A DNA stretch of 51,654 nucleotides, taken from Spirochaetaceae bacterium (GTDB lineage: Bacteria; Spirochaetota; Spirochaetia; Treponematales; Rectinemataceae). A program made the position numbers and the translations under genes. The notes beneath the pieces were generated by a model that was not told where the DNA came from, did no database searches, and was given only the letters and a program-made list of their open reading frames with translations. The stretch lies in assembly GCA_025355995.1 (NCBI GenBank), contig JANXYQ010000015.1, positions 1 through 51,654 of the forward strand. Reading direction: 5' to 3'. Positions 10,147-23,998 of the stretch are shown here, one piece after another. How positions within the stretch are numbered: the stretch's first letter is position 1; every line of letters begins with the position of its first letter.

Positions 10147-12542
10147 GGCTCGACTACCTCCAGCCCGCCCGCTCCTGGAACGAGGCCCTTCCGCTGGGCG
10201 ACGGCCGCCTGGGCTGCATGGTCTTCGGCGGGATCGAGGAGGAGCGCCTGGCCTTCAACGAGGAGACCCTCTGGTCGGGCCGCCCCGGCGGCGCCCCCCT
10301 GCCCAGGGCCGCGAGGACCCTGCCCCTCCTGCGCGGCCTCCTGGCCCAGGGGCGGCTAGCCGAGGCCGAGGAGGCGGCCTGCGACCTGATGGGCCCCTAC
10401 ACCGAATCCTACCTGCCCATGGGGGTCCTCCGCCTGCGCCTCTGGCACGGCTGCGCCGCCCAGGACTACTCCAGGAGCCTCGACCTCGCCCGCGCGCGCG
10501 CCGAGGTCGGCTATCGCGTCGGCTCGGTCCGCTACTCCCGCGCGTCCTTCGTCTCCGCTCCGCGCGGAGCGATGGCGCTGCGGCTCGAGGCCGACAGGCC
10601 GGGCATGGTGGATTTCGACGCCTCGATCGAAGGGGCGCTCATGTGCGGGGAATTCCGCGCGGGCGACCGCGTCGGCATCAGGGGCTTCTGCCCCGAGCGC
10701 GACGAGCCCAACTACGTGGACTCCGATCGGCCGATCGTCTACGGGAATCCCGCCTCGCCCGGCACGGTCGGCTACGCGGCCCTCCTGTGCGCGCGGATCG
10801 AGGGCGGCAGCCTCGAGGTCGGCCCCCGCGGCTTGGTAGTCCGCGGCGCCGACGCGGCGACGCTTTACCTCGCCGCGGCGACCGGCTACGGGGGGCCCCT
10901 CGATCCGCCCGGAACAGACCTGGCCGCCCTCTCCTCCCTCCTCGACGAGCGCCTCGATCGGGTGGCCTCGATCCCCTTCGGGGAACTCGCCGACGAGCAG
11001 GAGCGCGATCACGCCGGCTTTTTCTCGCGCGTCGGCCTGGAGCTCGGCTGCGCCTCGAGCGGCGCTGCGCGGGAGGCGCCGACCGACGCGCGCATCGCGG
11101 GGCACGACCTGAGCCTGGTCCCGCTGCTCTTCCAGTACGGCCGTTATCTGCTGATATCCGGCTGCAGGCCCGGCACCCTGCCCCTAACCCTCCAGGGGAT
11201 CTGGAACGACAGGGACAGGCCGCCCTGGAGCAGCAACTACACGCTCAACATCAATCTCGAGATGAACTACTGGCCCGCCGAGACCTGCAACCTGGGCGAG
11301 CTGCACGAATCCCTCCTGGGCTTCATCGAGAGCCTCGCCGTGCGGGGCGCGGAGACGGCGGCGAGCCTCGGCTGCGGCGGCTGGGCGGCGGGGCACAACA
11401 GCGACGGCTGGGCGCACTCGACTCCCGTCGGCGACTCGGGCCACGGGGACCCCAGCTGGGCGACCTGGCCGATGGGCGGAGCCTGGCTCTGCGCCCACCT
11501 GTGGGAGCATTGGCTCTTTTCCCGCGACGAGGAATACCTGCGGAGCCGAGCCTGGCCGATCATGAGGGGCGCCGCCCGCTTCGCCCTGGACTGGCTCGTA
11601 GAAGGAGACGGCGGCTTGACCACCTCGCCTTCTACCTCGCCGGAGCACAAGTACCTCGGCCCGGACGGGCGCGCCTACGGCCTCGCCGTCGGCAGCGCCA
11701 TGGACCTGAGCCTGATAGCCGAGCTCTTCGACGATTGCTCCGCCGCCGCGAGGGCGCTCGGCGCCGAGGACGCCCTGGTCTCGGAGATCGCGGCCGCCCG
11801 CGCCCGCCTGGCGGGGCCGAAAATAGGCGCCGACGGCCGACTGCAGGAGTGGTCCGCGGACGTCGTCGGGGCGGAGGAGGAGCATCGCCACCTCTCGCAT
11901 CTCTACGGCGTCTATCCGGGCAGCTCCATCGACCCCGAGGCGGCGCCGGAGCTGTGGCGCGCCGCGCGCGCCTCCCTCGAGGGCAGGGGCGAGGCGGGAA
12001 CCGGGTGGAGCATCGCGTGGAAGGCCTGCCTCTGGGCGCGCTTCGGCGACGGCGACCGCGCGCTGCGCTTCATCGAGCGATTCTTGAGCCTCGTCTCCGA
12101 CGGCCCCCGAGATTTCGAGCGGGGCTTTCACCAGGGAGGCGGGGTCTACCCGAACCTCTTCTGCGCCCACCCGCCCTTCCAGATCGACGGCAACATGGGG
12201 ATAGCCGCCGCTATAGCGGAGCTGCTGCTGCAGTCCCATCGCGGCCGCATCGATCTCCTCCCCGCCCTGCCCGCCGCCTGGGCCGCGGGCAGGGTCTCCG
12301 GCCTCCGGGCGCGAGGGGGCTTCGAGCTGGACATCGAGTGGGCGGAGGGCGCCCTTTTGAGCTGCGCCCTGCGGTCCCTCGCCGGGGAGGACTGCCGCTT
12401 GGGAGGCGCCGGCTGCCTGCGCGTTTTCAGCGACTGTCCCGGGCCGGGGCGCGGGACCGAGCTCGCCCTCCGCGCCGACGGCAGCTTCCCGACCGAAAGG
12501 GGCGGGGAGTACCGGATAGCGGCCCTTAGCCGGCCAGCCTAG
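10143..12542 (+). CDS. Alpha-L-fucosidase-type glycoside hydrolase, GH95 family
   Basis: A 799-residue GH95 enzyme; characterised members are inverting alpha-1,2-L-fucosidases or alpha-L-galactosidases. The N-terminal beta domain opens with [20 protein letters not shown] and NEETLWSG. The (alpha/alpha)6 domain has [30 protein letters not shown] and [20 protein letters not shown], all family signatures. No signal peptide is present. The ATG overlaps the GH29 stop by 4 bp. Together with GH29 this gives complementary linkage specificity (known for the families; the substrate is inferred). The gene ends convergent with, and overlapping by 4 bp, the minus-strand carboxyltransferase gene. Confidence 0.93.
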
Positions 12543-14215
12543 GCCCCCGCCTCCAGCGGCAGGGCCTCCCAGAACTCGGGCAGGTATCGCGCCGGCTTCT
12601 CGGGCTCGGGCGGCAGGGGCGGGTGCGCCTCCTCCCACTCGGCCCTGCGCTTGCCCTTGAGGAATTTCTCCGCGACGCTGGGGAAGAGCTCGATGAGGAG
12701 CTCTTCCTTTTCGTCGATCGCCAGGCTGGCGCCGCCGAACTCTACCAGCGAGGGGTTGGGCTGCTTGCGGTACGCGGAGGTGTCGTAGGGAGTCTCCTCG
12801 CGGACGCCGCAGATCTTGAGCCGGAAATCGGGGTCGATGGGCCAGGGAGTCTTGCCGTAGGAACCCCGCACGAGCTCGGCGAAGTTCTTGGAGACGTTCG
12901 TGTAATAGGGCTTGCCCAGGGCCAGGTCGACGACGCAATTGACGGCCTGGACGCCCACTATCTGGCTGGTCGGCGTGACGAGGGGGGGCAGGCCGCAGTC
13001 CAGCCGCACCTGGGGCACCAGGGCGAGGACCTCCGGGACCTTGTCGTCGAGCTTGGCCTCGTGGAGCTGGGAGAGCATGTTCGTGTACATCCCCCCCGGT
13101 ATCTGCGCCTTCTGCACGATCGCGTCCGGGTCGGGGTAATGGAAGCGCTTTTCGATCTTCCTGCAGAGCTCTAGCACGCGCTCGGCCTTGGCCGCGCTCG
13201 GCTTGCCCGTCGCCGCCTCCAGCGCATGATCGAAGAGGGCCGCGTCCTCCCTCGGGAGCTTGTGCTTCGAGAGGTCGAGGATGGGCGGGTGATTTTCCTT
13301 GTATTGGTCGAAGGCCGAGAGCTCGGCCCTGAAGGAGCGCAGCTGGGTGTCGATCGCCGCCACCGTGGCCCTGTCCACTCCCGTGTCGCGGCCCATGCGG
13401 TCGGCGAAGAGCTGGATGATCTCGTAGGCGGGCGCGGCCGGCCCGCCCGACCAGGACAGGATTACCGTGTCGACGATGTCGACGCCGGCGACCATCGCCA
13501 TCAGGATGGAGGCCACGCCGAAGCCGGGCGTGCAGTGCGTGTGCAGGTCGACGGGGAGGCCCGTCTCGGATTTGAGGAGGCGCACGAGCTGGTAGGCGCG
13601 CAGCGGCTCTATGAGCCCGGCCATGTCCTTGATGCTGATCATGTCGGCGCCGAGGCCCGCGACGGCCCTGGCCTTCTCGAGGAAGTAGCGGTCGGTGAAT
13701 ATCGCCCCGGGCAGCCTCTTGCCGCGGAGGGCGGAGGCGAGGCGCCTGCCCCTCGAGAAGGGCGGGTCCGTCGTGTAGCAGATGGCGCAATCGGCCGTGC
13801 CGCCCGCCTCCTTCACGAAGCGGACGGAGCTCTCCATATTCGCGGGATCGTTGAGGGCGTCGAATATGCGCATGATGTCGACGCCCGAGCGCACGGCGTT
13901 CCCGCAGAAGCCCCTGATCACGGAATCCGGGTAGGGGCTGTAGCCGAAGAGGTTGCGGCCGCGGGAGAGGGCGGTAAGCCGGGAGGCTTCGCCTATCTCC
14001 GCCTTGATGGACTCGAGGCGCTTCCAGGGATCCTCGTTCAGGTAGCGCATCACGGAGTCGGGGACCGCTCCTCCCCAGACTTCCATCGCGTAGAAGCCCG
14101 CCTTCTTATAAAGAGGAAGGACCCTTTCCACCTGGGCCTGGGTCATCCGGGTAGCGAACTGGGACTGCTGCCCGTCGCGAAGGGTCAGGTCGCGGATCCT
14201 GAGGGCTGAAGCCAT
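12539..14215 (-). CDS. Pyruvate/oxaloacetate carboxyltransferase, transcarboxylase 5S-like
   Basis: A 558-residue protein of the HMGL-like plus PYC_OADA type. It transfers CO2 between carboxybiotin and pyruvate/oxaloacetate. The metal site is intact: D14 in TLRDGQQ, the carbamylated-lysine position K196 in ISIKDMAG, and H225/H227 in DLHTHCTPG. There is no C-terminal biotinyl domain, as in the 5S subunit of methylmalonyl-CoA carboxyltransferase, whereas OadA usually carries one. The separate biotin carrier at 23606-23998 and the 12S-type subunit at 21752-23296 are the likely partners. The ATG at 14215 is preceded by AAGGAGG. An OadA or PycB role is the alternative. Confidence 0.88.
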
Positions 14216-14283: not shown

Positions 14284-15012
14284 CTAGGCGCCCAGGGCGG
14301 CCGAGATCGCCTCCGCGTGCTTCTTGACCTTGGCGATCTTGTCGGCGAAGAGCGGTCCCTCGAAGCGGACGGAGGGGCCGGAGATGGCCAGGGCGGCGAC
14401 GACCTCCCGCCTCGCGTCGAGCACCGGGGCCGCGATGGAGGAGACCCCCTCCTCCCGCTCGCCGAGGCTGACGGTGTAGCCGCCGTGGCGCAGCTCCGCG
14501 AGCGCCTCCTCGGTGGTGAAGGGGTCCTGCCGCAACAGTTCCTCGCGCTTCTCGCCCGGCAGGTAGGCGAGGAGGACACGGCCCGCCGCCCCCCTGGTCA
14601 GTGGGTGCCGATCGCCTATGTTGATGACGCGCCGCAGGGGCCGCGTGCTCTCGATCCGCTCGACGCAGATCCTCTCGTCGCCCTGGACCACGTACAGGCT
14701 CACGCCCTCGTCGTAGATCCGATTCAGGTCGTTCATGAAAGGCAGGGCCACCCTGCGGAGGTCGAGGTTGGAGAAGCCGAGGACGCCCACCTGGGCTATC
14801 TTCGGGCCGAGCGAGTAGCGCTGCGACTCCTTGCTCCGAAAAAGATAGCTCCGCCTCTCGAGGGTGGACACCAGGCGCGACGTCGTGCTCATGGACAGGG
14901 CGATCCGCTGCGAGATCTCGGTCAGGGACAGCTCGAGCCGTCCGGGCACGAAGCAGTCCAGGATATCCAGGGCCCTGTCGACGGCCCGAACAGAAGTATC
15001 TTTATCGGTCAC
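14284..15012 (-). CDS. IclR-family transcriptional regulator
   Basis: A 242-residue regulator with the IclR layout. The N-terminal winged helix-turn-helix (residues about 7-65, SVRAVDRALDILDCF then SLTEISQRIALSMSTTSRLV) is followed by the effector-binding domain (about 80-240, containing RGAAGRVLLAYLPGEKREEL). It probably binds an organic acid or acyl-CoA-related effector and controls the divergent korD operon and itself. The evidence for that is four copies of a TTCCAT-N3-ATGGAA palindrome in the divergent region, one of them starting 5 bp before this start codon. The start is ATG at 15012. Whether it represses or activates is not shown. Confidence 0.93.
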   Translation of the reverse strand: MTDKDTSVRAVDRALDILDCFVPGRLELSLTEISQRIALSMSTTSRLVSTLERRSYLFRSKESQRYSLGPKIAQVGVLGFSNLDLRRVALPFMNDLNRIYDEGVSLYVVQGDERICVERIESTRPLRRVINIGDRHPLTRGAAGRVLLAYLPGEKREELLRQDPFTTEEALAELRHGGYTVSLGEREEGVSSIAAPVLDARREVVAALAISGPSVRFEGPLFADKIAKVKKHAEAISAALGA

Positions 15013-15017
15013 GGCGA

Positions 15018-15052
15018 TTCCGTAGAATGGAATAGAATACCATCAAATGGTA
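15018..15052. promoter_or_regulatory. Operator pair A over the iclR promoter
   Basis: Two palindromes, TTCCGTAGAATGGAA (15018-15032) and TACCATCAAATGGTA (15038-15052), have centres 20 bp apart, which is two helical turns. The second overlaps the putative iclR -10 and the first covers the translation-initiation region. This arrangement fits autorepression. Confidence 0.75.
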
Positions 15053-15078
15053 CTAATCGAATATTTTATCATTGTCAA
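15050..15078 (-). promoter_or_regulatory. Putative iclR promoter
   Basis: A consensus -35 TTGACA (15078-15073) with a 17-bp spacer and a weak -10 TAGTAC (15055-15050) on the minus strand. The -10 runs into the operator at 15038-15052. Confidence 0.55.
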
Positions 15079-15200
15079 TAGGAGATTCATTTGGCGATGC
15101 CAGGCCCTGCCTCTATTTATTTTTCTAAGCCTATTCTCATGATACCATGATCATGCTAGATTACTAGCCGTCAAGCGTTGTTAGGAAAATAACCAATGTC

Positions 15201-15235
15201 TTCCATTTTATGGAACTCTATTCCGTCTGATGGAA
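15201..15235. promoter_or_regulatory. Operator pair B upstream of the korD operon
   Basis: TTCCATTTTATGGAA (15201-15215) and TTCCGTCTGATGGAA (15221-15235) share the sequence and the exact 20-bp centre spacing of pair A. They lie 100-134 bp before the korD start. I could not place a convincing -35/-10 for the korD transcript, so whether they cover or precede its promoter is open. The gene-free interval 15013-15296 holds only these sites, the iclR promoter and a 10-bp palindrome CATGATCATG at 15146-15155. Confidence 0.75.
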
Positions 15236-15296
15236 TATCCTAATGAAACATTCTCCGCGTCAACCCGGGTTATCTAGCGGTGAAGGAGAGTCAGTG

Positions 15297-15338
15297 ATGT
15301 ATACTGAGCACTCGCCATGGAGCGAGCTGAAGGCATGA
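15297..15338 (+). CDS. Short leader ORF coupled to korD
   Basis: A 13-codon reading frame, MYTEHSPWSELKA, starts at ATG 15297, eight bases after the strong ribosome-binding site GAAGGAGAG (a GTG one codon earlier is also possible). Its TGA (15336-15338) overlaps the korD ATG at 15335 as ATGA. The Shine-Dalgarno sequence belongs to this frame and not to korD, so ribosomes probably load here and re-initiate at korD. It could be a translational-coupling device or a leader peptide. No homology is claimed. Confidence 0.5.
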   Translation: MYTEHSPWSELKA

Positions 15339-15607
15339 GCGACCAACCGAAGAAGACGTACATCCTTATCGTGAGGGAGCGGTATTGCAAGGGCTGCACT
15401 ATCTGCGTGACCTTCTGCCCCAAGCACGTCCTGTCGCTCAGGGGGGGGAAGGTCTGGGCCGAGCACCCCGAGCTCTGCATAGGCTGCAAGATGTGCGAGC
15501 TCCGCTGCCCCGACTTCGCCATCGAGGTCCACGAGAAGGGCGAGGAGCTCGGCTCGGGCGTCGACGATATGGACCTGGACCTGCCGCCGGAGGCTCTTCA
15601 TGACTAG
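15335..15607 (+). CDS. korD: 2-oxoacid:ferredoxin oxidoreductase, ferredoxin (delta) subunit
   Basis: A 90-residue two-[4Fe-4S] ferredoxin-like subunit. Two cluster motifs are present, CKGCTICVTFCP and CIGCKMCELRCP, spaced as in KorD/VorD/PorD. It passes electrons from the thiamin-bound 2-oxoacid to soluble ferredoxin. I prefer the ATG at 15335 because it overlaps the stop of the leader ORF (ATGA); an in-frame ATG at 15317 has no ribosome-binding site. The stop lies 8 nt inside korA. It opens an operon that continues to 23998. Confidence 0.9.
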   Translation: MSDQPKKTYILIVRERYCKGCTICVTFCPKHVLSLRGGKVWAEHPELCIGCKMCELRCPDFAIEVHEKGEELGSGVDDMDLDLPPEALHD

Positions 15608-16736
15608 GAACGCCAAGCTCATGCAGGGCAACGAGGCCTGTACGATCGGCGCCCTCGCCGCCGGCCTCGAATTCTACGCGGGCTACCCGATAACGCCCTC
15701 GACGGAGATAGCCGAGCTCTGCGCCGAGGAGCTGCCCAAGGTGGGCGGCAAATTCATACAGATGGAGGACGAGATCGGCTCCATCGCCGCCTGCATCGGC
15801 GCCTCCCTCGCCGGCAAGAAGGCGATGACCGCGACGAGCGGCCCCGGCTTCTCCCTCATGCAGGAGTGCCTGGGCTACGCCTCCCTCACCGAGGTGCCCC
15901 TCGTCATCATCGACGTGCAGCGCATGGGACCGAGCACCGGCATGCCCACCTCCCCCGCCCAGGCCGACCTCATGCAGGCGCGCTGGGGCACCCACGGCGA
16001 CCATCCCGTCATCGTGCTGGCCCCGGGCAACGTCAAGGAATGCTTCGAGCTCACGTTCAAGGCCTTCGACATAGCCGAGACCTACCGCGTGCCAGTCATC
16101 GTCCTCACCGACGAGATCATCGGCCACATGCGCGAGAAGGTGATCCTCCCCGACCCGGCCGGACTCAAGCCGCTTCGCCGCGCCGCGCCCGCCTCTCCCG
16201 CCGGCTATAAGCCCTACGCCGCCGACCCGGACGGGGGCGTGCCCCTGATGGCCCCCTTCGGCGAGGGCTACCGCTGGCACGTCACGGGGCTCTTCCACGA
16301 CGAGTCGGGCAGGCCCTCCGGCAAGAGCGAGGTCGCGGACAAGTTGATGCGTCGCCTCGCCCGCAAGGTCGAGAAGGCGGCCCCCCTCATCGAGGAGCAC
16401 TTCGAGGAGTCCCTGGAGGACGCCGAGATCGTCGTGGTCTCCTTCGGCTCCTCGGCCATGTCCAGCTTGAGCGCCGTGCGCCGCGCCAGGCGCGAGGGCG
16501 TGAAGGCGGGGATGCTCAGGCTGAAGACCATGTGGCCCTTCCCGGACGAGCTCGTGGCCCGCGCTGCCTCCAGGGCCAGGCGGGTGATCGTGCCCGAGAT
16601 GAACCTGGGCCAGCTCGCCCTCGAGGTCGAGCGCGCGGGCTGCGGGGGGGCGCCCGTGACTCGGCTCGGCAAGGTGAACGGCGAGCTCTTCCGCCCCGAG
16701 GAAGTCTACGCCTCCATCATGGAGGCGGTAAAATGA
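15600..16736 (+). CDS. korA: 2-oxoacid:ferredoxin oxidoreductase, alpha subunit
   Basis: A 378-residue alpha subunit of the KorA/VorB type. It starts with LMQGNEACTIGALAAGLEFYAGYPITPSTE, the pyrimidine-binding half of the thiamin diphosphate site, contains TSGPGFSLMQE and ends with the transketolase-C-like domain. With KorBCD it would oxidise a 2-oxoacid with CoA to acyl-CoA, CO2 and reduced ferredoxin. 2-Oxoglutarate is the likeliest substrate because the next enzyme encoded uses succinyl-CoA, but branched-chain 2-oxoacids cannot be excluded from sequence alone. It overlaps korD by 8 nt and korB by 4 nt (ATGA). Confidence 0.92.
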   Translation: MTRNAKLMQGNEACTIGALAAGLEFYAGYPITPSTEIAELCAEELPKVGGKFIQMEDEIGSIAACIGASLAGKKAMTATSGPGFSLMQECLGYASLTEVPLVIIDVQRMGPSTGMPTSPAQADLMQARWGTHGDHPVIVLAPGNVKECFELTFKAFDIAETYRVPVIVLTDEIIGHMREKVILPDPAGLKPLRRAAPASPAGYKPYAADPDGGVPLMAPFGEGYRWHVTGLFHDESGRPSGKSEVADKLMRRLARKVEKAAPLIEEHFEESLEDAEIVVVSFGSSAMSSLSAVRRARREGVKAGMLRLKTMWPFPDELVARAASRARRVIVPEMNLGQLALEVERAGCGGAPVTRLGKVNGELFRPEEVYASIMEAVK

Positions 16737-17593
16737 GCTCGACCCTAAGCTACTTCCGGCAGGAGAACCTGCCCCACATCTGGTGCCCCGGCTGCGGCCA
16801 CGGCACCGTGACGGGCTCCCTGATCCGGGCGATCCAGCGCCTCGACCTGGACAAGAACAAGGTCTGCATCGTGTCGGGCATCGGCTGCTCCTCCCGGGCG
16901 GTGGGTTACCTCGACTTCGACACCTTGCACACCGCCCATGGGCGCGCCCTCGCTTTCGCCACGGGCATCAAGCTCGCGCGCCCCGAGCTCAAGGTCATCG
17001 TGATGACCGGCGACGGGGACTGCACCGCGATCGGCGGCAACCACTTCATTCACGCCGCGCGCCGTAATATAGATATAACAACGATCGTGATGAACAATAA
17101 CATCTACGGCATGACGAGCGGGCAGTACTCGCCGATGACGCCCAAGGGCATGTACGGGACCACGGCGCCCTATGGCAACCTCGAGCGGAGCTTCGACCTC
17201 TGCGAGCTCGCGAAGGCGGCCGGGGCCACCTACGTCGCCCGCGCGACCTCGTACCACGTGCCCCTCCTCATCGATCTCATCGAGGCCGCCCTCCAGAACA
17301 AGGGCTTCTCCATGGTCGAGGCCATCGTGCAGTGCCCCACCTATTTCGGGCGCAAGAACAAGGTCGGGGGCCCCGTCGAGATGCTCAATTGGATCAAGGA
17401 CGGCGTTGTAAACGTCAAGGCCGCCGCCTCCCTCCCGCCCGAGAAGGTCGCGGGCAAGAAGCTCATCGGCGAGCTCCACAACGCCCCCGCGAGCGAGTAC
17501 ACCGCCGACTACGACGAGCTCATAGCCAAGGTGCAGCGCACCTACGAAGGTTTCCAGGGAGGGCTCTACGGATGCGCGTCGAATTCAGATTGA
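16733..17593 (+). CDS. korB: 2-oxoacid:ferredoxin oxidoreductase, beta subunit
   Basis: A 286-residue beta subunit carrying the thiamin diphosphate and a [4Fe-4S] cluster. WCPGCGHG (C18, C21), GIGCSSR (C52) and a later VQCPTYFGRKN supply the cluster cysteines. GDGD (93-96) through NNN (121-123) is the thiamin-diphosphate/Mg motif. IYGMTSGQYSPMTP is typical of KorB/VorA. The ATG overlaps the korA stop, and its own end overlaps korC by 22 nt. It acts in the cytoplasm as part of the KorDABC complex. Confidence 0.93.
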   Translation: MSSTLSYFRQENLPHIWCPGCGHGTVTGSLIRAIQRLDLDKNKVCIVSGIGCSSRAVGYLDFDTLHTAHGRALAFATGIKLARPELKVIVMTGDGDCTAIGGNHFIHAARRNIDITTIVMNNNIYGMTSGQYSPMTPKGMYGTTAPYGNLERSFDLCELAKAAGATYVARATSYHVPLLIDLIEAALQNKGFSMVEAIVQCPTYFGRKNKVGGPVEMLNWIKDGVVNVKAAASLPPEKVAGKKLIGELHNAPASEYTADYDELIAKVQRTYEGFQGGLYGCASNSD

Positions 17594-18132
17594 GCGGATC
17601 GGGAGGCCAGGGCCTCCTCCTCGCGGGCATCGTGCTCGCCGAGGCCGCGATCCTCGACGACAAGAACGCGGTCCAGACCCAGAGCTACGGCCCCGAGGCG
17701 CGCGGCGGGTCGAGCAAGGCCGAGGTGGTGATCTCCGACGAGGACATCGACTACCCCAAGGCCACCGACCCCGACTACCTCCTGGCCCTCACGGCCGAGT
17801 CGTACAAGAGCTACGGCCCACTCATGGGCAAGGGCCTCATCATCGTCGACAGCTCGGTGCCCGTCTCCGCCGATATCGCGGCGCGCACCGTGTCCGTGCC
17901 CATACTCGAGACCGCGCGCGACAAGGTCGGCAAGAAGGTGGTCGCAAACATAGTCGCCCTCGGGGTGCTCGGCGGGCTGTCCAAGGCCGCGACCCGGACA
18001 AGCCTCGAGGCCGCGGTCAAAAGCCGCGTGCCCAAGGGCACCGAGGAGCTCAACGTCAGCGCCTTGCGCGCGGGCTTCGAGCTGGCCGAACTGGCCGCCT
18101 CGCAGCGCGGCGCCCGGAAGACCCAGGCTTAA
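17572..18132 (+). CDS. korC: 2-oxoacid:ferredoxin oxidoreductase, gamma subunit
   Basis: A 186-residue gamma subunit. It has the signature opening FRLSGSGGQGLLLAGIVLAEAA, then QTQSYGPEARGGSSKAEVVIS, both diagnostic for the POR/KorC gamma family. It completes a four-subunit oxidoreductase in the order D-A-B-C. The ATG at 17572 overlaps the korB end by 22 nt, so translation is coupled. The next gene (methylmalonyl-CoA mutase) starts 15 bp further on behind AAGGAAGGA, which puts the oxidoreductase and the mutase in one transcript. Confidence 0.93.
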   Translation: MRVEFRLSGSGGQGLLLAGIVLAEAAILDDKNAVQTQSYGPEARGGSSKAEVVISDEDIDYPKATDPDYLLALTAESYKSYGPLMGKGLIIVDSSVPVSADIAARTVSVPILETARDKVGKKVVANIVALGVLGGLSKAATRTSLEAAVKSRVPKGTEELNVSALRAGFELAELAASQRGARKTQA

Positions 18133-18147
18133 CAAAGGAAGGACGCG

Positions 18148-19815
<1,668 letters not shown>

Positions 19816-19824
19816 GGAGATTGT

Positions 19825-20223
19825 ATGGAGCGCAAGATACGCGTGCTGGTAGCGAAGCCGGGGCTCGACGGGCACGATCGGGGCGCCAAGGTGGTGGCCC
19901 GGGCCCTGCGCGACGCGGGGATGGAAGTGATCTACACCGGGCTGCGCCAGACTCCGGAGCAGATCGTCCAGGCGGCGATACAGGAAGACGTCGACGTCGT
20001 CGCGATGAGCATCCTCTCGGGCGCGCACAACCACCTCTTCCCGAGGGTCACGGCCCTCCTCGCCGAGAAGGGAGCCTCAGACGTGCTCGTCGTGGGTGGG
20101 GGCGTCATCCCCGAGGACGACATCCCCTTCCTCAAGGAGAAGGGCGTCGCGGCGGTTTTCGGCCCCGGCACGCCCACCGGGACGACCATCGACTTCATCA
20201 AAGCCAACGTCAAAAGGCTGTAG
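19825..20223 (+). CDS. mcmB: Methylmalonyl-CoA mutase, B12-binding subunit
   Basis: A 132-residue cobalamin-binding subunit. It has the base-off/His-on motif DGHDRG with axial ligand H17, MSILSGAH and VVGGGVIP, which together hold adenosylcobalamin. It pairs with the catalytic subunit encoded 9 bp upstream. GGAG immediately precedes its ATG. The complete length matches stand-alone McmB subunits, so this is not a fragment of a fused mutase. Confidence 0.95.
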
Positions 20224-20234
20224 GCCCCGCATCC

Positions 20235-21311
20235 ATGCTGGCGAGAGCGGCTCCCTCTCCCGAGGATATCGCGGTCAGGATCCTCCGCGGCGAGGAGCGG
20301 GCCCTCGCCCGCCTCATCACGGGGCTCGAGGACGGCGAGCCCTGGGCCTCCTCATCCCTGCGGGCCCTGCGCTCGGATTCGGCGTCGCATGGCTTCTCCC
20401 AGGTCGTGGGCGTGACGGGGCCGCCCGGCTGCGGCAAGAGCACGCTCGTCGACAAGCTGATCGGCATATACAGGGGGCGCGGAGAGCGGGTCGCCGTCCT
20501 CGCCGTGGATCCCTCGAGCCCCTTCACCGGCGGGGCGATACTCGGGGACCGCATACGCATGCAATCCAGGGCCGCCGGCGCTGCGATCGATGAGGGGGTC
20601 TTTATCCGGAGCCTCGCCTCGCGGGGCCGGCTCGGCGGCCTCTCGCGGGCGACCGCCCAGGCCTCGCGGGCCCTCGAGGCCGCGGGCTACGGGGTCATCC
20701 TCGTCGAAACCGTGGGCATAGGGCAGTCCGAGGTGGACGTAGCCCGGCTCGCGGACGCGGTCGTCCTCGTCGCGATGCCCGGCTCGGGCGACGACATCCA
20801 GACGATCAAGGCCGGGGTGATGGAGATAGGCGACGTCTTCGTCGTCAACAAGGCCGACCGCGAGGGCGCCGACAGGACCGTCCGCGAGATCCGCTCGATG
20901 CTCGAGGTGGCGGCCGACCTTGCGGCGGGCAGGGAGCCCATGGCCGCTCCCGATACCCTCGTCGGGCACCACGCCTTCGCGCCTGCGAGGGGCGGCGCGC
21001 ACGGATCCCCGAGCCTGCCTCCCGTTTTGAAGACCGTAGCCGAGACTGGCGAGGGCGTGGCCGAGCTCGCCTCGGCCCTCGACGGGCTGTGGGCTACATC
21101 GAAGGCCGGAGGGGAGCTCGAGGCGAGGCGCAAGCGCGGGGCCATCGCCGAGGCGAGGGCGCTGCTATCGGAACGGGTCCTCGACGAGCTCGAGGCCCTC
21201 GAGGGCGACCTCGAGGATAGACTGGCGGACGAGATAGTCAGGGGCGAGCGCGAGGCGGCCGAGGCGGCCGACCTCCTCTTCGACTCCATACGGAAGGGAG
21301 GGCGGACATGA
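20235..21311 (+). CDS. meaB: MeaB-type GTPase, chaperone of methylmalonyl-CoA mutase
   Basis: A 358-residue G3E P-loop GTPase of the MeaB/ArgK family. It has Walker A GPPGCGKS (62-69), VDPSSPFTGGAILGDRIRM, the Walker B-like ETVGIGQSEVDV, and the base-recognition NKAD. MeaB loads and protects the adenosylcobalamin of methylmalonyl-CoA mutase, which matches its position directly after the two mutase subunits. The ATG at 20235 lies 11 bp after mcmB without a strong Shine-Dalgarno sequence, suggesting coupled translation. Its stop overlaps the epimerase ATG. Confidence 0.94.
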   Translation: MLARAAPSPEDIAVRILRGEERALARLITGLEDGEPWASSSLRALRSDSASHGFSQVVGVTGPPGCGKSTLVDKLIGIYRGRGERVAVLAVDPSSPFTGGAILGDRIRMQSRAAGAAIDEGVFIRSLASRGRLGGLSRATAQASRALEAAGYGVILVETVGIGQSEVDVARLADAVVLVAMPGSGDDIQTIKAGVMEIGDVFVVNKADREGADRTVREIRSMLEVAADLAAGREPMAAPDTLVGHHAFAPARGGAHGSPSLPPVLKTVAETGEGVAELASALDGLWATSKAGGELEARRKRGAIAEARALLSERVLDELEALEGDLEDRLADEIVRGEREAAEAADLLFDSIRKGGRT

Positions 21312-21715
21312 AAGCGCTCAAGCTGGATCACGTCGGGATCGCGGTCGAGAGCCTGGACGAGGCGCTCAAGCTCTACTCAGGCCTCCTCGGCCTGGAATTG
21401 AAGGGCACCGAGGTCGTCGAGGAGCAGAAGGTCAGGACCGCCTTCCTCCCCTTGGGGGACACGGAGATGGAGCTTCTCGAGTCCACCGACCCGGAGGGCC
21501 CGATAGGGAAATTCATCGCGAGCAGGGGGCAGGGGGTGCAGCACCTCGCCTTCCGCGTGGACGACATAGACGCTGCCCTCGCGGAGCTCAAGGCGGCGGG
21601 GGCGAGGCTCATCGACGAGAAGGCCCGCTACGGGGCGGGCGGCGCGCGCATCGCCTTCCTCCACCCCAAGGCCACGGGCGGGGTCCTTGTCGAGCTCTGC
21701 GAGCGTAAGGCATAA
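21308..21715 (+). CDS. mce: Methylmalonyl-CoA epimerase
   Basis: A 135-residue vicinal-oxygen-chelate protein that interconverts (R)- and (S)-methylmalonyl-CoA. Metal-ligand positions are visible: LDHVGIAV with H8, QHLAFRVDD with the second His, and VLVELCE with the Glu near the C-terminus. Two beta-alpha-beta-beta-beta modules fit the family, and the length is normal. It overlaps meaB by 4 bp (ATGA). Its role fits the pathway order, because the downstream carboxyltransferase uses the S isomer. Confidence 0.94.
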   Translation: MKALKLDHVGIAVESLDEALKLYSGLLGLELKGTEVVEEQKVRTAFLPLGDTEMELLESTDPEGPIGKFIASRGQGVQHLAFRVDDIDAALAELKAAGARLIDEKARYGAGGARIAFLHPKATGGVLVELCERKA

Positions 21716-21751
21716 TGACAAAAGTATGAATTTTGTAAATTGGAGATAAGC

Positions 21752-23296
21752 ATGGAAGAGAAGATACGGAAGCTCGGCGAGCGGCGGGGCAAGGTACTCG
21801 AGGGAGGCGGGCTCAAGCGAGTGGTCGCCCAGCACGAGAAGGGCAAGATGACGGCGCGCGAGCGGATAGCGGCGCTGCTCGACCCGGGGAGCTTCGTCGA
21901 GCTCGACGCCTTCGTCGAGCATCGCTGCGCCGAGCTCGGGATGGACGAGGTCGTGGCGCCGGGCGAGGGCGTGGTCATCGGCTACGGCCTGGTCGACGGC
22001 CGGCAGGTCTTCGTGTTCGCACAGGACTTCACGGTCATAGGCGGCTCCCTGGGCGAGGCCCACGCGAAGAAGATCTGCAAGGCCATGGACATGGCTATGA
22101 AGGTCGGCGTGCCCTGCATCGGGATCGAGGACTCGGGCGGGGCCCGCATCCAGGAGGGCGTCGACGCCCTCGCGGGATACGGCGACATCTTCTACCGGAA
22201 CACCCTCGCCTCGGGCGTGATCCCGCAGATCTCCGCGATCATGGGGCCCTGCGCGGGAGGGGCCGTCTACTCGCCCGCCCTGACCGACTTCGTCTTCATG
22301 ACCGACAAGACTTCCAACATGTTCATCACCGGCCCCCAGGTGATCAAGGCGGTCACCGGCGAGGACGTCACCGCCGAGGCCCTCGGCGGCGCGACGGTCC
22401 ACGCGGCGACGAGCGGCGTCGCCCACTTCGCTTTCCCGGACGAGGCAGCGACCGTAGCCGGAATCAAGAAGCTCCTCTCCTATCTGCCCCAGAATAACGT
22501 CGAGGACCCGCCCCTCGTCGACTCGGGCGACCCGGCGTCGCGCTCCGACCCCGGCCTCGCCGACCTCATGCCCGACCTGCCCAACAAGCCCTACGATATC
22601 CGCGACGTCATCGCGCGCGTCTTCGACTCGGGCGACTACTTCGAGGTGCAGCCCCTCTACGCGATGAACATGGTCACCTGCTTCGCCCGCCTCTGCGGCA
22701 GGACCGTGGGCATCGTCGCGAACCAGCCCAAGATAATGGCCGGCGTCCTCGATATAAACGCGTCGGACAAGGCCGCGCGCTTCATCCGCTTCTGCGACGC
22801 CTTCAACATCCCCCTCGTGACGCTGGTCGACACCTCCGGCTATCTCCCGGGCGTCGGCCAGGAGCACGGCGGCGTCATCCGCCACGGCGCCAAGATCCTC
22901 TACGCCTACTCCGAGGCGACGGTGCCCAAGCTCACGGTGATACTGCGCAAGGCCTACGGCGGCGCCTACATCGCGATGTGCAGCCGCCACCTCGGCGCCG
23001 ACCAGGTCTTCGCCTGGCCCTCCGCCGAGATAGCGGTCATGGGGCCCGACGGCGCCGCCAACATCATCTTCAAGCGCGAGATCGACGAGGCGGCCGACCC
23101 CGCCGCCCTGCGCAAGGCAAAGATCGCCGAGTACAAGGCCGAGTTCGCCAACCCCTACAAGGCGGCCCGGCGAGGCTACGTCGACGACGTGATCGATCCC
23201 TCCGAGACGAGGTCGCGCCTCGCCGCGGCCCTGGCCATGCTGGGGGGCAAGCGCGAGCGCGGGCCCAGCCGCAAGCACGGCAACATGCCGATGTGA
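21752..23296 (+). CDS. mmdA: Methylmalonyl-CoA carboxyltransferase 12S / decarboxylase alpha subunit
   Basis: A 514-residue carboxyltransferase of the MmdA/PccB/12S family. It moves the carboxyl group of (S)-methylmalonyl-CoA onto biotin, giving propionyl-CoA. Two crotonase-like halves are seen, with the oxyanion-type glycine motifs SGGARIQEGV and MGPCAGGAVYSPAL, and later VDTSGYLPGVGQEHGG and RKAYGGAYIAM. I chose ATG 21752, 6 bases after GGAG (21742-21745); an ATG at 21740 has no such site. The next genes are an OadG-like anchor and a biotin carrier. Propionyl-CoA carboxylase beta is a less likely alternative, as no biotin carboxylase is nearby. Confidence 0.93.
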   Translation: MEEKIRKLGERRGKVLEGGGLKRVVAQHEKGKMTARERIAALLDPGSFVELDAFVEHRCAELGMDEVVAPGEGVVIGYGLVDGRQVFVFAQDFTVIGGSLGEAHAKKICKAMDMAMKVGVPCIGIEDSGGARIQEGVDALAGYGDIFYRNTLASGVIPQISAIMGPCAGGAVYSPALTDFVFMTDKTSNMFITGPQVIKAVTGEDVTAEALGGATVHAATSGVAHFAFPDEAATVAGIKKLLSYLPQNNVEDPPLVDSGDPASRSDPGLADLMPDLPNKPYDIRDVIARVFDSGDYFEVQPLYAMNMVTCFARLCGRTVGIVANQPKIMAGVLDINASDKAARFIRFCDAFNIPLVTLVDTSGYLPGVGQEHGGVIRHGAKILYAYSEATVPKLTVILRKAYGGAYIAMCSRHLGADQVFAWPSAEIAVMGPDGAANIIFKREIDEAADPAALRKAKIAEYKAEFANPYKAARRGYVDDVIDPSETRSRLAAALAMLGGKRERGPSRKHGNMPM

Positions 23297-23604
23297 TGGC
23301 GGGCATGCAGAACTACCTTCCGCTAGCCATCGTGGCCGCGGCCCTCGTCCTCGCCTCCCTGCTCGGGAGGGCCGCCGGCAAGCGCGCGCGCGCCCGGGCC
23401 GGCTCGCGGCCCGCCGCCAAGTCCGGCTCCCCCGCCGAGGGAGAGTTGATCGCCGTGATCGCGGCGGCGGTGGCCGCGGCGAGCGGCATGGAGAGCGGCT
23501 CCTTCAGGATCGTCGGCGTCCAGGGCTCGTCCCCTTCCTTCGCGCAACGCGGCTTCAACACCCCGGCATGGGGACACGTAGACAGGTTCCTTCAAGGAGA
23601 ATGA
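23296..23604 (+). CDS. OadG/MmdC-like small membrane subunit
   Basis: A 102-residue protein with one N-terminal membrane helix (residues about 7-24), a basic and flexible linker, then LIAVIAAAVAAASGMESGSF and a C-terminal NTPAWGHVDR. The order is helix, IAAAVAA motif and a W-x-x-x-x-R ending, as in the gamma/delta subunits of biotin-dependent decarboxylases. Those subunits anchor the biotin carrier and carboxyltransferase at the membrane. The ATG overlaps the mmdA stop (TGATG). No beta subunit (OadB/MmdB, the sodium pump) is in the window, so this subunit is the main clue that the complex may be membrane-linked. Confidence 0.75.
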   Translation: MAGMQNYLPLAIVAAALVLASLLGRAAGKRARARAGSRPAAKSGSPAEGELIAVIAAAVAAASGMESGSFRIVGVQGSSPSFAQRGFNTPAWGHVDRFLQGE

Positions 23605-23605
23605 T

Positions 23606-23998
23606 ATGAAGAGCTACAAGATAACCGTCGACGGCCAGAGCTACGACGTCACCGTCGAGGAGCTGGGCGCCGCGGCCGCCGGCCCTGCCCAGGCCAAGCC
23701 GGCAGCCGTCGCGGGCGCCAGGCCCGCGCCCGTCTCGCCGCCCGGCTCGGCGGCCTCGGCTGGCGCCGCCCCTGTAGTGGCGGGCGCCGCTCAAGTGAAG
23801 GCGCCGATGCCCGGCACCCTCCTGAGCTACAAGGTAGCCGTAGGCCAGGCGGTCAAGCGGGGCGAGGTCCTCTTGATCCTCGAGGCGATGAAGATGGAGA
23901 ACGAGATAGTCGCCCCGGGGGATGGCGTCGTGAAGGCGCTGTGCGTGGCCGAAGGTGCGTCCGTGAACACCGGGGACCCGCTGATAGAACTGGGCTGA
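23606..23998 (+). CDS. Biotin carboxyl carrier protein of the carboxyltransferase complex
   Basis: A 130-residue biotinyl protein. A short N-terminal domain (MKSYKITVDGQSYDVTVEEL) is followed by an Ala/Pro-rich swinging linker (about 21-63) and a biotinyl domain with KAPMPGTLLS and EAMKMEN, where K96 would carry biotin. It shuttles CO2 between the 12S-type subunit (mmdA) and an acceptor, either the 5S protein (pyruvate) or a decarboxylase. It matches the 1.3S subunit of transcarboxylase and MmdC/GcdC carriers. It is the last gene of the operon that begins at korD, and it faces the convergent cyclase gene 6 bp away. Confidence 0.93.
   Translation: MKSYKITVDGQSYDVTVEELGAAAAGPAQAKPAAVAGARPAPVSPPGSAASAGAAPVVAGAAQVKAPMPGTLLSYKVAVGQAVKRGEVLLILEAMKMENEIVAPGDGVVKALCVAEGASVNTGDPLIELG

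Follow-up and report, generated by a model that had tools for sequence, protein, structure and literature searches.

The genes iclR and korD stand back to back in the window, the 51,654-nucleotide stretch of spirochaete DNA analysed here, and the region between them carries four 15-bp palindromes (Table 1). The iclR product belongs to the IclR family, whose members have about 250 aa with HTH_IclR at the N-terminus and IclR_C at the C-terminus: it is 242 aa long and matches HTH_IclR with 53.5 bits (cut-off 22) and IclR_C with 117.8 bits (cut-off 24). The pycB-like gene downstream of iclR is probably co-transcribed with it. On the other side, korD opens a run of genes for a 2-oxoacid ferredoxin oxidoreductase, whose substrate is probably 2-oxoglutarate, and for methylmalonyl-CoA mutase and carboxyltransferase components. 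The names kor, epimerase, and transcarboxylase used for this locus come from Pfam domains and gene order; the glyoxalase-fold protein is probably the epimerase. Judging by where the orthologues align, korD most likely starts at the ATG at 15335; the mechanical open reading frame begins at 15317.

Table 1. Genes, promoter element, and predicted operators of the iclR-korD locus (window coordinates).
Feature	Position	Strand	Remarks
pycB-like carboxylase/transcarboxylase subunit, downstream of iclR	12539..14215	-	Pfam PYC_OADA, HMGL-like; beside iclR in 15/17 orthologous loci
IclR-family regulator, GTG start, proposed repressor of all four sites	14284..15012	-	Pfam IclR_C 4.9e-34, HTH_IclR 2.1e-14; orthologues in 17 other genomes
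Predicted operator, iclR side, nearer the iclR start codon	15018..15032	.	TTCCGTAGAATGGAA; partner at 20 bp in 15/18 loci
Predicted operator, iclR side, over the predicted iclR -10 box and start site	15038..15052	.	TACCATCAAATGGTA
Predicted iclR -35 box	15073..15078	-	TTGACA; the -10 box (ATTAGT or TAGTAC, weak) would overlap the operator at 15038-15052
Predicted operator, korD side, first copy	15201..15215	.	TTCCATTTTATGGAA
Predicted operator, korD side, second copy	15221..15235	.	TTCCGTCTGATGGAA; top site score of the window
korD, ferredoxin-like subunit	15335..15607	+	Fer4 domains; start by orthologue alignment
korA, korB, korC, 2-oxoacid ferredoxin oxidoreductase subunits	15600..18132	+	POR_N/PFOR_II, TPP_enzyme_C, POR
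Rest of proposed target operon: methylmalonyl-CoA mutase large and B12-binding parts, MeaB, glyoxalase-fold protein, carboxyltransferase, biotin carrier	18148..23998	+	Pfam

The palindromes lie where the original prediction had placed them, with starts at 15018, 15038, 15201, and 15221; two of them cover the predicted iclR promoter and two stand ahead of korD. Each pair has a spacing of 20 bp from start to start, as had been claimed, which falls within the 18–22 nt between centres that marks tandem sites. The four operators had also been described as identical; all four are indeed present, but they are similar rather than identical. With both strands counted, the palindrome at up to two mismatches matches the window 13 times against 2.08 expected (sd 1.81), a number reached by none of 100 shuffles. 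Taken with their flanks, the two pairs (15017-15067 and 15186-15236) form a 51-nt inverted repeat with 71% complementarity.

The rarity of the sites was assessed over the whole genome (4,497,552 bases in 138 contigs). The exact sequence TTCCRTNNNAYGGAA is found at three places, all of them in the iclR-korD spacer; one mismatch adds 14 further places, giving a total of 17 compared with 11 for the reversed control. The relaxed motif TWCCRYNNNRYGGWA has ten exact matches, four of which are in the spacer (control, five). A search for a pair with 20-bp spacing, in which as many as three of the 24 specified positions could differ, returned two places, namely the two pairs of the window, and its reversed control gave one. 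Thus, the genome-wide pair search proposed with the original prediction locates 20-bp pairs nowhere but in the iclR-korD spacer, and the accompanying claim that the motif is confined to this region is true of the exact motif and of the pairs, but not of relaxed single sites. A shorter paired core with one mismatch was unspecific in the genome (26 places versus 32 in the control). A strict pair pattern with a variable gap of 3–16 bases, through which alone the 29-bp spacing was scanned in the window genome, matched in 4 of 30 genomes of the family, in every case at an iclR-kor locus by coordinates. Operator pairs on both divergent sides and, at 20 bp, nowhere else are the arrangement of an autoregulator with one adjacent operon.

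The single sites that the two motif searches listed outside the spacer amount to 19 places, and among the 17 examined (two one-mismatch places had no locus and were left out) none was shown to front an operon, several falling within long open frames. The best-looking candidate for an additional regulon member (L020) lies, by reading of the locus, inside a coding frame, which we take to be PIN/VapC-like. Another place (L108) was left unjudged, the contig start being close by and the tested position not being the site itself, and a match at C25:29049 was dropped, as the matrix described below found no site scoring at least 11 there. The site-like TTCCATCGCGTAGAA at 14081 is regarded as a coding coincidence in the pycB-like gene because many genomes that lack iclR have similar sequences at the corresponding position.

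Close orthologues of the regulator (66–79% identity) are encoded by 9 of 29 further genomes in its own family and by eight genomes from one genus of another family within the order. Altogether, matches to the regulator were obtained in 18 of the 390 genomes searched in the order, the window genome included, and a sample of 392 genomes from the phylum yielded five, all from these two orthologue groups. The named versions of the protein come mostly from spirochaete MAGs. In a tree of the regulator, a single branch (100/99) separates the two families, a pattern that would be expected from vertical descent. iclR is divergent from korD in all 17 other orthologous loci, and a mutase gene follows korC in 13 of them, the examined stretch of the other four ending before that point. 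A leader peptide overlapping the korD start in the window was considered and rejected, no counterpart being seen in the orthologous leaders. Several korD leaders of the second family (L044, L046, L048, L050, L051, L053, and L054) appear by eye to have a small hairpin-like stretch before the ribosome-binding site, exemplified by GCCGTAACGGC in L053.

Outside the phylum, an actinobacterial MAG (L006) encodes a distant IclR homologue (29% identity), and TTCCATATTATGGAA stands there without mismatch at 1493-1507, 26 bp ahead of the point where the match to the homologue begins. This homologue and the window regulator have in common an STTSR stretch in the DNA-binding domain, presumably the recognition-helix region, and to judge from the two sequences, the motif may be kept across phyla together with it.

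The 18 intergenic regions adjoining iclR (9075 bases) hold 5, 18, and 27 sites at zero, one, and two mismatches, while 200 single-base shuffles of the same regions gave means of 0, 0.08, and 0.84. A symmetric position matrix built from 62 sites of the 18 loci has the consensus TTCCRY-N3-RYGGAA. Conservation beside orthologous iclR-kor loci, which had been named as a check on the original prediction, was borne out by strong sites in 18 of 18 regions. A natural control is offered by 20 genomes (18 of the same family and two of the other) that have the same divergent pycB/kor arrangement with no iclR between; they come from 23 genomes without an iclR match that were searched for korA, three of which (G015, G022, and G033) had no korA match at the threshold and were left out. 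Operators were found in none of these 20 iclR-less spacers. For scoring, a leave-one-out matrix was derived from a single korD-side site of each genome; the top site reaches at least 16.9 in every iclR locus and at most 7.7 in every locus without iclR (8.3 at most with the full matrix), figures to be read with the reservation that the matrix was trained on iclR-bearing loci and that leaving one out lowers this bias and does not abolish it.

On its well-supported branches, the korA tree calls for iclR to have been gained or lost at least three times. G025, a genome of the same genus, is sister to the window genome (G000) in this tree (100/99) and is placed among iclR-bearing genomes, so that it most likely lost the gene. 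Although the G025 assembly is only 79% complete, its pycB-kor locus is whole. In its pycB-korD spacer (L080), iclR and all operators at the locus are gone, apparently recently, and a TTGACA-like box and a TATACT box are retained before korD. Since the loss of iclR takes out a stretch of DNA, a single deletion may account for part of the joint absence of the gene and the sites.

The spacing within the pairs follows different rules on the two sides. Exactly 20 bp separates the two iclR-side sites in 15 of 18 loci, no clear second site being present at that distance in G013, G012, and G056. For the korD side, the best partner is 29 or 30 bp away in 16 of the 18, and a distance of 20 bp is confined to the window genome and G010. 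The earlier statement that both pairs keep a two-turn spacing is correct for the window genome and, as a rule, for the iclR side, but it does not extend to the korD side. In the eight loci of the second family (f4), the korD-side partner is weak, a half-site only, with the right half-site RYGGWA in the 29-bp register in seven of them. At 10.5 bp per turn, 20 and 29 bp correspond to 1.9 and 2.8 turns, which is about the same face of the helix. Because the korD-side spacing of the relatives is 29 bp, the korD pair of the window genome could have arisen from the iclR pair by inverted duplication. The difference between 20 and 29 bp is kept in two families, and a speculative reading, to which we give rather little credence, is that one regulator reads a 20-bp pair at its own promoter and a 29-bp pair at the metabolic operon, the spacings setting different affinities, and that the window genome has lost that difference. 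If so, autoregulation and control of the operon would switch at different effector levels, and the operon pair of the window genome would have moved to the autoregulatory spacing.

TtgV controls a solvent efflux pump. It is homologous to the window regulator (PDB 2xrn/2xro, 1.3e-17) and is cited for the binding of DNA as a tetramer in the survey of IclR-family motifs by Suvorova and Gelfand (2021, PMC8222616). There, group 1 motifs are given as GKTYCRYW3-4RYGRAMC, with a WTT-11-AAW subgroup, WTTYCRYW3RYGRAAW, into which the sites described here, TTCCRYN3RYGGAA, fit. Tandem sites 18–22 nt apart are reported in the same survey for 94 of 181 ortholog groups, with a weaker excess at three and four turns, and the two-turn spacing is ascribed to tetramers whose dimers occupy one side of the DNA. 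The likeness to these tandem group 1 sites lies in the 18–22 nt between centres, the three-turn excess, and the combination of autoregulation with one or two adjacent operons; the difference is that Table 2 of the survey is without spirochaetes, and its regulog section names no kor-methylmalonyl-CoA operon.

Two entries of Table 1 in PMC8222616 come especially close. The site of GenR from Corynebacterium glutamicum, ATTCC-N7(5)-GGAAT, has half-sites and a gap practically as here; the comparison is of the sites alone, and GenR regulates the use of 3-hydroxybenzoate/gentisate. E. coli IclR (TGGAAATNATTTCCA) has the same half-site letters, and its arrangement GGAA-N5-TTCC is that of the inner halves of the korD-side window pair at 20-bp spacing, but within its single palindrome the half-sites point the opposite way, and it controls the glyoxylate bypass. 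In the literature as far as it was covered, no published system was found that joins IclR with 2-oxoglutarate ferredoxin oxidoreductase, korA/korB, a methylmalonyl-CoA mutase regulon, or spirochaetes. Thus, the motif type and the 18–22-nt tandem spacing have already been described for the family in PMC8222616, and the layout is an ordinary one; what is new is the occurrence of such sites in a phylum missing from Table 2 of that survey, with unusually clean evolutionary support.

The position of the promoters bears on the sign of the regulation. In 12 of 18 loci, including the window genome, a TTGAC sequence precedes the promoter-side iclR operator by 26–28 bp, and the iclR -10 box of these loci would then extend as far as the operator's first base. 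Upstream of korD, TTGAC is likewise seen in 12 of 18 loci, with three at -27, one at -47, and eight at -55 to -57, and in the -47 and -55 to -57 loci the weaker korD-side partner site comes after the -10 box. These TTGAC positions put the operators on or after the -10 box, as is usual for a repressor, and point to autorepression together with repression of the kor-methylmalonyl-CoA operon. No good sigma-70 promoter was seen on the korD side of the window genome (15053-15335), which, unlike most relatives, is without a clear TTGACA promoter ahead of korD; for this reason, the repressive sign at korD in this particular genome is taken from its relatives.

The sites might, in principle, belong to another regulator or be chance palindromes in an A+T-rich spacer, and relaxed single copies do exist elsewhere in the genome. 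Such an explanation is hard to reconcile with the way the sites track iclR (18 of 18 loci with the gene, 0 of 20 without it), with the uniqueness of the 20-bp pairs in the genome, and with the match to the known motif type of the IclR family, and we consider it extremely improbable. A closer competitor accepts the sites as operators of the IclR protein and makes the protein an activator of kor, with autorepression confined to the iclR side. The IclR family does include activators and dual regulators (PMC8222616), and no strong korD promoter surrounds the korD pair of the window genome; against this, the position of TTGAC upstream of the korD sites in 12 of 18 loci means that operators or half-sites coincide with the -10 box or immediately follow it, a location typical of a repressor and not of a classical activator, and activation of kor seems unlikely.

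A further version, raised in the original prediction, has the regulator bridging the two pairs into a repression loop of about 180 bp. Two pairs in a single intergenic region would permit such a geometry. Across the 18 loci, however, the two pairs are 112–281 bp apart, measured between the inner iclR-side operator and the first one on the korD side. This separation shows no clear helical phasing (at 10.5 bp per turn, Rayleigh R 0.38 and p about 0.08; p 0.065–0.54 across the six periods tried), and each side already has a pair of its own. The proposal of a loop thus finds little in these loci to sustain it, and we regard it as improbable.

The position, genome-wide rarity, and conservation of the four palindromes, as well as their co-occurrence and joint loss with iclR, make it very probable that they are operators of the adjacent IclR protein, which would act through the two pairs to repress iclR (probably with the pycB-like gene) and the kor-methylmalonyl-CoA operon until a pathway intermediate releases it. 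The original prediction of IclR operators is upheld by this rarity and by the conservation among orthologues, and the pairs would suit a tetramer or two cooperating dimers. Two dimers or one tetramer would sit on each pair, roughly on one face of the DNA, and bind cooperatively. On the iclR side, the operators cover the -10 box, the start site, and the leader, so that binding would block iclR and probably the pycB-like gene too. On the korD side, the pair would block or road-block the kor-methylmalonyl-CoA mutase-carboxyltransferase operon at or just after its promoter. The protein would probably be released by an intermediate from the 2-oxoglutarate/succinyl-CoA/methylmalonyl-CoA/propionyl-CoA route, either a small acid or a CoA-related compound; the choice of effector is not fixed by its nearest relatives of solved structure (2o0y, 1mkm, KdgR, AllR, TtgV, and E. 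coli IclR).

For the biology of these bacteria, the operators represent a predicted control point for the 2-oxoacid ferredoxin oxidoreductase/methylmalonyl-CoA/carboxyltransferase block of uncultured spirochaetes, which do not appear in the survey table of IclR-family motifs (PMC8222616). Apart from this control point and the set of loci, the protein is an ordinary local regulator. The 18 loci with the regulator and the 20 without it constitute a natural experiment on a repressor and its operators lost together, and the same set also suits the comparison of two-turn and three-turn operator spacing under one regulator.
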